Shown here piece by piece: positions 18,322 through 32,462 of a stretch of DNA of 36,057 nucleotides. This DNA comes from Desulfurococcales archaeon (GTDB lineage: Archaea > Thermoproteota > Thermoprotei_A > Sulfolobales > NBVN01), in the NCBI GenBank assembly GCA_023255955.1, contig JAGDWD010000003.1:71001-107057 (forward strand). Reading direction: 5' to 3'. The stretch's first letter is position 1. Every line of letters starts with the position of its first letter. The notes under the pieces were generated by a model. That model searched no databases and was not told the DNA's origin. It saw only the letters and a list, made by a program, of their open reading frames with translations. Position numbers and translations under genes: made by a program.

Positions 18322-18430
18322 GCGGGGGTGCCCGAGCCAGGTCAAAGGGGGCGGGCTCAAGACCTTCCAGCACGGGTGTGGAGAGACCCGCTGGCGTAGG
18401 CCTGCGTGGGTTCGAATCCCACCCCCCGCA
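18322..18430 (+). tRNA. tRNA-Leu(CAA) with a 24-nt intron
   Basis: Acceptor GCGGGGG (18322-18328) pairs with CCCCCGC (18423-18429), discriminator A18430. Anticodon stem GCGGG (18351-18355) pairs with CCCGC (18387-18391). The loop reads C-U-CAA-G-[intron]-A, giving anticodon CAA (18358-18360). The intron is 18362-18385, between positions 37 and 38, the canonical archaeal site cut by the splicing endonuclease. The long variable arm (CTGGCGTAGGCCTGC region) fits a class II leucine tRNA. The T arm is GTGGG-TTCGAAT-CCCAC. CCA is not encoded. Confidence 0.95.
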
Positions 18431-21157: not shown

Positions 21158-21276
21158 GCACTAACATGTCCCTATCTGACCTCATACCTTTCAGGGAGTA
21201 TGTCTCCATATCCATATCGTTATTCGCCATAATGGACCCGCTTGCTGCTATACCGACTCTGATCTCCTACATAGGG

Positions 21277-21592
21277 GCTGTTCTGTTTTTGATTAGTGGG
21301 TGTTGGGTTATGTTTTTGTGATTGGTTGTTTTATGCCGCTGTGTTCTGGGGTTACATGTTAAACTTATTAACTTCATTCCTATAAGTAGCTTGGACACCC
21401 CGCTGAGTGATGGGAGCAATGCTCCGAGCTCTGCGGGGTTAAGCGTAGATGTGTCCCGCGTTCCGTTCGGGACGAACGCCACCCATGACCCGTAGGGATA
21501 GGTAGATCCCTGCGAGTGAGGTGGAAGTCCCTAGATGTGATGAATAAACATAAACCCACATCAGCGAGCATCTAGGGACAAACGGTAGCGCA
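21277..21592 (-). mobile_element. 316-bp non-coding element inserted in marC
   Basis: Bounded precisely by the restored marC frame. It has no transposase gene, no obvious target-site duplication and no terminal inverted repeats. It is strongly structured: a hairpin ACCCCGC (21397-21403) / GCGGGGT (21433-21439) enclosing further paired arms; two mutually exclusive stems GTCCC/GGGAC (21453-21457/21469-21473) and GCGTTC/GAACGC (21458-21463/21474-21479); and an 11-bp inverted repeat GTCCCTAGATG/CATCTAGGGAC (21527-21537/21569-21579). The last 90 bases on the left are T/G-rich. A small, coding-free, hairpin-rich insertion resembles a MITE or IS605-derived non-autonomous element. The strand given is the one favoured by wobble-pair evidence. 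Confidence 0.72.
21507..21583 (-). repeat. Hairpin repeat, copy 1 (inside the marC insertion)
   Basis: About 77 bases shared with 22199-22275: CCTGCG, GTGGAAG, CCCTAGA, GATGA, TAAACATAAAC, then GAGCATCTAGGGACAAAC. The 11-bp arms are perfectly complementary in this copy. Confidence 0.8.
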
Positions 21593-22198
21593 GATCTGGG
21601 AGGTAGGAATCTTGACACCGTGATCAGGCAGGCTGTGAATAAGGCTTCCGTGGCTATGGTTATCCTCGTCACGCTCTTCTCCCTCGCTGGAGAGCTCATC
21701 CTCCGAGCATTTAACGTAAGCATCGAGTCTCTGAAAGTAGCTGGTGGGATATTACTCATCGTGCTGGCAATCAACATGCTTATGGCTAAAGAGAAGGAGG
21801 AAGTTGAGAAAGGGGACTTCGCGATAGTCCCGATCGCGACACCCCTCATAATAGGTCCCGGAACGATGAGTACCCTGATAGTATACTCGAGAGTATATGG
21901 GCCACTCACAACACTTATAGGAGCTTACATAGCTATAGGACTGACCTACCTCATTCTTAGATATTCATACGTAATGTTCAAGTACCTAGGCACCTCAGTA
22001 CTTAAGGGTCTAGGTAAGTTCATGTCGATAATAGTGGCTGCCATAGCAGTTGAATTAATGGTAGGCGGCCTCAAAGATCTAGGTCTTCTCCTAGTAGGTG
22101 GGTAGCTCTAGAAGCTGTGTAAGTCTCTACGTACTCGAACATTGATCTAACAAGTTCTAGCATCCTAACTATAACTGTAGTGGTGTACTTAGATGAAA

Positions 22199-22275
22199 TT
22201 CCTGCGGACGATGTGGAAGCCCCTAGACGCGATGAGTAAACATAAACTAATGTTAATGAGCATCTAGGGACAAAC
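22199..22275 (-). repeat. Hairpin repeat, copy 2 (after marC)
   Basis: It shares most bases with copy 1 but without the rest of the 316-bp element. Arms are GCCCCTAGACG (22219-22229) and CATCTAGGGAC (22261-22271). The two changed bases leave A-C mismatches on the plus strand but G-U wobble pairs if the minus strand is the RNA. Otherwise the 252-base gap 22106-22357 holds only the promoter of the next gene (T/A-rich, about 22305-22335). Confidence 0.75.
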
Positions 22276-32374: not shown

Positions 32375-32462
32375 GCCGGGGTGCCCGAGCGGTCTAAGGG
32401 GCCGGCCTGGAGAGCCGGTGCGGTATATCCGCGCGCGGGTTCGAATCCCGCCCCCGGCGCCA
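32375..32462 (+). tRNA. tRNA-Ser(GGA), CCA encoded
   Basis: Acceptor GCCGGGG (32375-32381) pairs with CCCCGGC (32452-32458), discriminator G32459, followed by genomic CCA (32460-32462). The anticodon loop CTGGAGA between CCGGC and GCCGG gives anticodon GGA. The long variable arm (TGCGGTATATCCGCG) is class II serine. T arm GCGGG-TTCGAAT-CCCGC. No intron. Confidence 0.97.

Follow-up and report, generated by a model that had tools for sequence, protein, structure and literature searches.

A multicopy, IS607-related miniature element with an omegaRNA-like module interrupts marC in a Desulfurococcales archaeon

A marC gene split by DNA that carries no transposase gene raises the question of what the intervening sequence is and how it came to lie there. 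The gene spans positions 21166-22105 of the window, the 36,057-nt stretch analysed here (C6:71001-107057 of the 13-contig, 1.64-Mb genome G000 of a Desulfurococcales archaeon), and is divided in two by the insert. Its N-terminal frame opens at 21166 and stops within the insert, giving a 51-aa ORF (21166-21321). The marC 5' part (21166-21277, + strand), delimited by this ORF and by alignment with same-genus MarC, comprises about 37 N-terminal codons up to YIG, and the 3' part (21586-22105, +) is intact in a single frame, matches PF01914 (E=2.2e-28) and aligns with its homologues. The insert is absent from all of about 20 aligned MarC homologues, of which six come from the same genus; in these uninterrupted proteins a short loop connects YIG to the NKA.. 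helix, and the same YIG-side and NKA..-side pieces flank the insert in the window. The first-pass annotation had described a marC disrupted by a structured element, with a downstream half that looked undamaged, and both descriptions hold; the insertion into marC may be recent. Elsewhere in the window, two tRNA matches were found, at 18322-18430 (109 nt) and 32375-32459 (85 nt), and the length of the former suggests an intron.

The insert is not single-copy, which, with the insert-free orthologues and the parent family described below, favours that first description. Used as a query against its own genome, it returned 42 matches: 23 span it almost completely, and another two have internal deletions. 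About 24 full-length copies are present, most of them 80-97% alike, with nearest-neighbour identities of 87 to 97%. Boundaries were set from 25 copies aligned in one orientation, which share a conserved block running from GGGCTGT to GACAAACGG, beyond which the flanks diverge; in the window this block occupies 21275-21585. The copies start with GGGCTGTTCTGTTTTTGATT, with small variations, and finish with GGGACAAACGG between flanks that are unrelated from copy to copy, the ends common to all being GGG/CTGTTC...AAAC/GG. The genome holds about 25 end-to-end copies of an element of 259-320 bp with defined ends and no transposase gene. We refer to such copies as MITEs, using the term loosely for a miniature non-autonomous derivative.

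At the left junction (GGG, 21275-21277, +), the last two bases form a GG recombination core, and GGG precedes CTGT in 25 of 25 copies. The element ends on a second GG core (21584-21585, +), which closes the sequence AAACGG in nearly all copies; the base beyond this right end is a T in 20 of 37 cases, interpreted as a weak target preference. The left GGGCTGTTC and the right GACAAACGG are not inverted repeats of each other, and the absence of terminal inverted repeats is expected, since IS607 has none (PMC6188088). A same-genus genome (L158) provides the uninserted counterpart of the site occupied by another copy, L010. This site reads GAGCTGGGGTAGTAC; the L010 flanks, when fused at the core, yield AAATAGCTGGGGTAGTAC, which matches it without any duplication. 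Together with the GG core, this comparison places the marC element at 21278-21585 (+; 308 bp) when the core is counted a single time, or at 21276-21585 when both cores are included, and by analogy with L010 the GG at the left junction of marC was probably contributed by the target. The limits first proposed, 21277-21592 (316 bp), were incorrect: their last seven bases (21586-21592, TAGCGCA) are marC sequence and lie outside the element. The lack of a clear target duplication that had been noted is confirmed both at marC and at L010. These junctions agree with the described behaviour of IS607, which inserts at GG, prefers (G)GG, exchanges strands over an identical 2-bp core and generates no duplication (PMC6188088, in excerpt).

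The copies fall into more than one type. A second subfamily (L024, L027, L028, L063, L073-L075 and L077) has the left end GGGC.GAAAAGTTTATTAGGG, which is also that of an intact IS607 element on contig C2, and two of its members, L073 and L074, finish in AAACAG rather than AAACGG. In addition, a right-end-only relic of the same family (22198-22275, +; 79% identity, ending in AAACTG) begins 92 bp behind marC and is judged to be older than the marC insert.

The analysis of the ends and of the remaining coding potential identified an IS607-family parent in the same genome. The left end (LE) of the marC copy (GGGCTGTTCTGTTTTTGATTAGTGGGTGTT..., 21275-21310, +) shares about 88% identity across 35 bp with an LE that directly precedes a tnpA gene at C10:90463 (frameshifted as assembled, and cut off by the contig end), and it also closely resembles the LE of L131, an IS607 element of Desulfurococcaceae KUA_Bin13. 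On C2, an intact pair of genes encodes a 218-aa serine recombinase (Resolvase and MerR-type HTH domains) and, overlapping it, a 437-aa TnpB. The 3' end of this tnpB is overlapped by the same right-hand module as that of the marC insert, ending in GACAAACGG; the C2 element carries the second left-end type, GGGACAGAAAGTTTATTAGGG, found also in the short copies L024, L027, L028, L074, L075 and L077. The TnpBs of C2 and of its relatives retain the D, E and D residues of the RuvC motif, and a TnpB search of the assembly detected one complete tnpB of the C2 type. Contigs C3, C8 and C11 each break off within a similar element, either in tnpB or in its right end, and marC-type right ends lie at contig ends; these breaks would fit near-identical full elements disrupting the assembly. 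The marC insert itself had been described as containing no gene, which is accurate insofar as neither transposon gene is present; nevertheless, a relic of the TnpB C-terminus, SDGSNAPSSAGLSVDVSRVPFGTNATHDP, is encoded at 21406-21501 (+), with 75% identity to C2 TnpB residues 381-412 (E=3e-9). Other Desulfurococcales also contain complete IS607 elements whose ends are of the same kind. Separate IS200/IS605 elements with a Y1 transposase and TnpB are located at C9:6733-8240, C12:353205-354712 and C5:114759-115907, two of them complete and one cut by a contig end.

The hairpins of the insert had first led us to consider an IS200/IS605 origin, with the insert as a PATE, a derivative moved by a Y1 transposase through single-strand transposition beside a short target, leaving no duplication and bearing hairpins near its ends. 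PATEs are similar in appearance (PMC3119063, in excerpt), and IS605 elements encoding Y1 TnpA and TnpB exist in this genome, but we dropped this origin, which we regard as extremely improbable, once the parent genes had been read: the elements that share both the LE and the right-hand module encode a serine recombinase, not Y1. Furthermore, the IS607 TnpB and the IS605 TnpBs found in this genome are only distantly similar (27% identity over about 200 residues), the module has no match at the ends of its IS605 elements, and GG at both ends fits IS607. The marC insert is thus very probably a non-autonomous miniature derivative of an IS607-family transposon, presumably mobilised in trans. Through an internal deletion the element would have lost tnpA and almost the whole of tnpB, so that the LE, the remnant of the TnpB C-terminus and the module-bearing right end persist. 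The TnpA serine recombinase of intact IS607 copies would then excise such units as circles and insert them at (G)GG, with exchange over the 2-bp GG core, which would explain the GGG and GG junctions and the missing target duplication. That TnpA acts in trans on the mini-elements is suggested by the ends that they share with tnpA-bearing elements.

Besides marC, six other loci (L002, L010, L011, L015, L020 and L027) present apparently interrupted genes, and in all of them both halves are free of stops. From reading their sequences, we take the hosts at L002, L010 and L011 to be ComB-like, sodium-symporter-like and glycosyltransferase-like genes, and those at L015, L020 and L027 to be MFS-like, CaiB-like CoA transferase and AstE/AspA-like genes, respectively. 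In three of the seven gene insertions (L010, L002 and L015), the host frame is recovered without deficit once the flanks are joined at the core. In the other four one nucleotide is missing: the deficit lies exactly at the junction in marC, L020 and L027, and L011 is also 1 nt short, at a place where its homologues are too divergent to name the base. In marC, as at the other short junctions, the missing nucleotide is probably a G of the G run. The earlier statement that removal of the insert exactly restores the MarC frame does not survive the corrected limits, since removing the true 308 bp leaves this 1-nt deficit, and the 316-bp segment restored the frame simply because 316 is 1 mod 3, the length class that the frame requires. 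A shifted recombination core was rejected as the cause of the deficit, as no one register accounts for the seven gene insertions together. In-frame read-through of the L011 element ('open frame 776') was likewise discarded, its translation having stops within the element. The 1-nt deficit at four junctions, together with the fact that the closest relative of the marC copy is only 89% identical, with no very recent donor among the copies within the genome, counts against derivation as an IS607 MITE.

The stop-free halves of all seven interrupted genes, in spite of copies that differ by about 10%, could also be taken as a sign that the insert is removed from the mRNA, as an intron or an IStron-like element, with marC and the other host genes still working, and bacterial chimeras of IS607 and group I introns (IStrons) do exist (PMC4227781). 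We nevertheless consider such removal very unlikely. The intron families of Rfam returned no match to the insert, intact halves are explained by recent insertion, and one pair of splice sites cannot repair both frame classes (L010, L002 and L015 versus L001, L020, L027 and L011), which rules out intron-like removal as a general rule.

The insert folds with an MFE of -71.2 kcal/mol (z = -4.2), in line with the several strong hairpins reported in the first-pass annotation, and its right end (21408-21585, +) forms a 178-nt omegaRNA-like module with 34 consensus pairs, scoring 193 bits with covariance model R1. In an alignment (A1) of 50 right ends from this genome and its relatives, 96.4% of the cells in these pairs are paired, and double-changed cells number 72, against 21 +/- 3 in shuffled alignments and at most 16 with slid partners. 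A helix at 21453-21473 (+), in which GTCCCG (21453-21458) pairs with CGGGAC (21468-21473), contains three covarying pairs, each with 10-14 double-changed sequences (for example AU to UA, GC to CG, CG to GC), and a terminal 11-bp hairpin (21527-21579, +), with arms GTCCCTAGATG (21527-21537) and CATCTAGGGAC (21569-21579), is paired in 97.6% of cells across the 50 loci. As in omegaRNAs and reRNAs, this conserved structured RNA overlaps the 3' end of tnpB and stops at the transposon boundary. No RNA family in Rfam, RAGATH-18 included, matched the insert at the gathering threshold or at E<=10.

A search with a covariance model located 49 module loci in G000 and, in three of the 40 other genomes searched, 38 (G002), 33 (G003) and 45 (G037), counts that include tnpB-joined and degraded loci. 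The module was absent from the sister species G001, G004 and G005, and G006 presented eight weaker loci; G006 aside, same-genus genomes hold either 33-49 loci or none, a patchy distribution. Outside G000, the right-end pattern was found in 31 GTDB genome stretches, nearly all of them from Desulfurococcales MAGs, including complete LE-tnpA-tnpB-RE elements and further short derivatives; the viral contigs searched returned no match to this pattern.

The position of the module points to a possible role for TnpB. Beyond the last conserved base the sequence varies from copy to copy, and from TnpB biology the guide of the marC copy would start with TAGCGCAGATCTGGGAGGTA (21586-21605, +), which is marC sequence. 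Guides of this kind direct the TnpB of IS200/IS605 elements to cleave uninserted sites, resulting in retention or drive (PMC11870625, in excerpt). By analogy, and with less confidence than we attach to mobilisation by TnpA, the module, if transcribed, would carry marC sequence from 21586 as its guide, and TnpB supplied in trans would cut the uninserted allele, helping the MITE to persist. The gene-less copies might then be living, TnpB-dependent guide-RNA elements, with dozens of omegaRNAs, all transcribed, served by one or a few TnpBs in a form of RNA-guided drive, a proposal to which we give somewhat less than even chances. If it is true, each mini-element would use its own insertion site as guide, and would be kept and spread even at the cost of damage to genes.

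The chance that the module is instead dead weight, its fold merely inherited by an IS607 MITE from tnpB-bearing ancestors and without present guide function, we put only just short of even. Part of the covariation may be inherited, because in the parent the module and the coding sequence of tnpB overlap. Among the 21 MITE copies alone, four pairs covary, no more than in shuffles, and in two mosaic copies, L010 and L016, the 5' arm belongs to one sequence type and the 3' arm to the other, which breaks the covarying helix (columns 46-51/61-66 of alignment A2) and suggests recombination or gene conversion between copies. Against mere inheritance, the helices are retained in 96.8% of cells even among the MITE copies, in which double-changed cells number 25 versus 9.7 +/- 2.4 in shuffles; furthermore, the closest copies are 97% identical, and intact tnpA and tnpB genes are present in the genome. 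With about 49 TnpB-type modules for one complete IS607 tnpB, this genome offers a natural setting for testing the use of TnpB in trans, and for asking whether RNA-guided retention keeps elements that break host genes. The corrected ends can also be used to annotate such repeats, which are otherwise read as split genes.

Staphylothermus marinus is a crenarchaeote of the order Desulfurococcales. Its IS607-related MITEs, of about 260 nt and in 14 copies, disrupt two ORFs (PMC2678158, in excerpt), and the marC element resembles them in being short, multicopy, IS607-related and gene-disrupting in a crenarchaeal host. The S. marinus MITEs have been likened to the region upstream of transposase ORFs, whereas here the right end and its fold are kept, with about 49 module loci in one genome; the excerpted parts of that account do not discuss a guide-RNA module. 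IS607 elements with TnpB have a RAGATH-18-derived reRNA, a structured RNA at the 3' end of tnpB (PMC11061315, in excerpt), and a reported target motif of GAGGG (PMC11061315, PMC6188088, both in excerpt). The family described here shares with them the serine recombinase and tnpB, the GG core and the (G)GG target (PMC11061315; PMC6188088), but the marC insert lacks both genes and its RNA is not recognised as RAGATH-18 by Rfam. The PATEs of Haloquadratum are likewise gene-less derivatives of TnpB transposons that have palindromes close to their termini and lack a target duplication, and related deletion products keep short C-terminal remnants (PMC3119063, in excerpt), as the marC insert does; PATEs derive from IS200/IS605, with its Y1 transposase, and the marC element from IS607. 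In the part of the literature covered, we found no account of gene-less IS607 copies that retain a guide-RNA module. Gene-disrupting IS607 MITEs are therefore already known, and the less familiar feature of the present family is the retention, in high copy number, of a module with a putative guide-RNA function.
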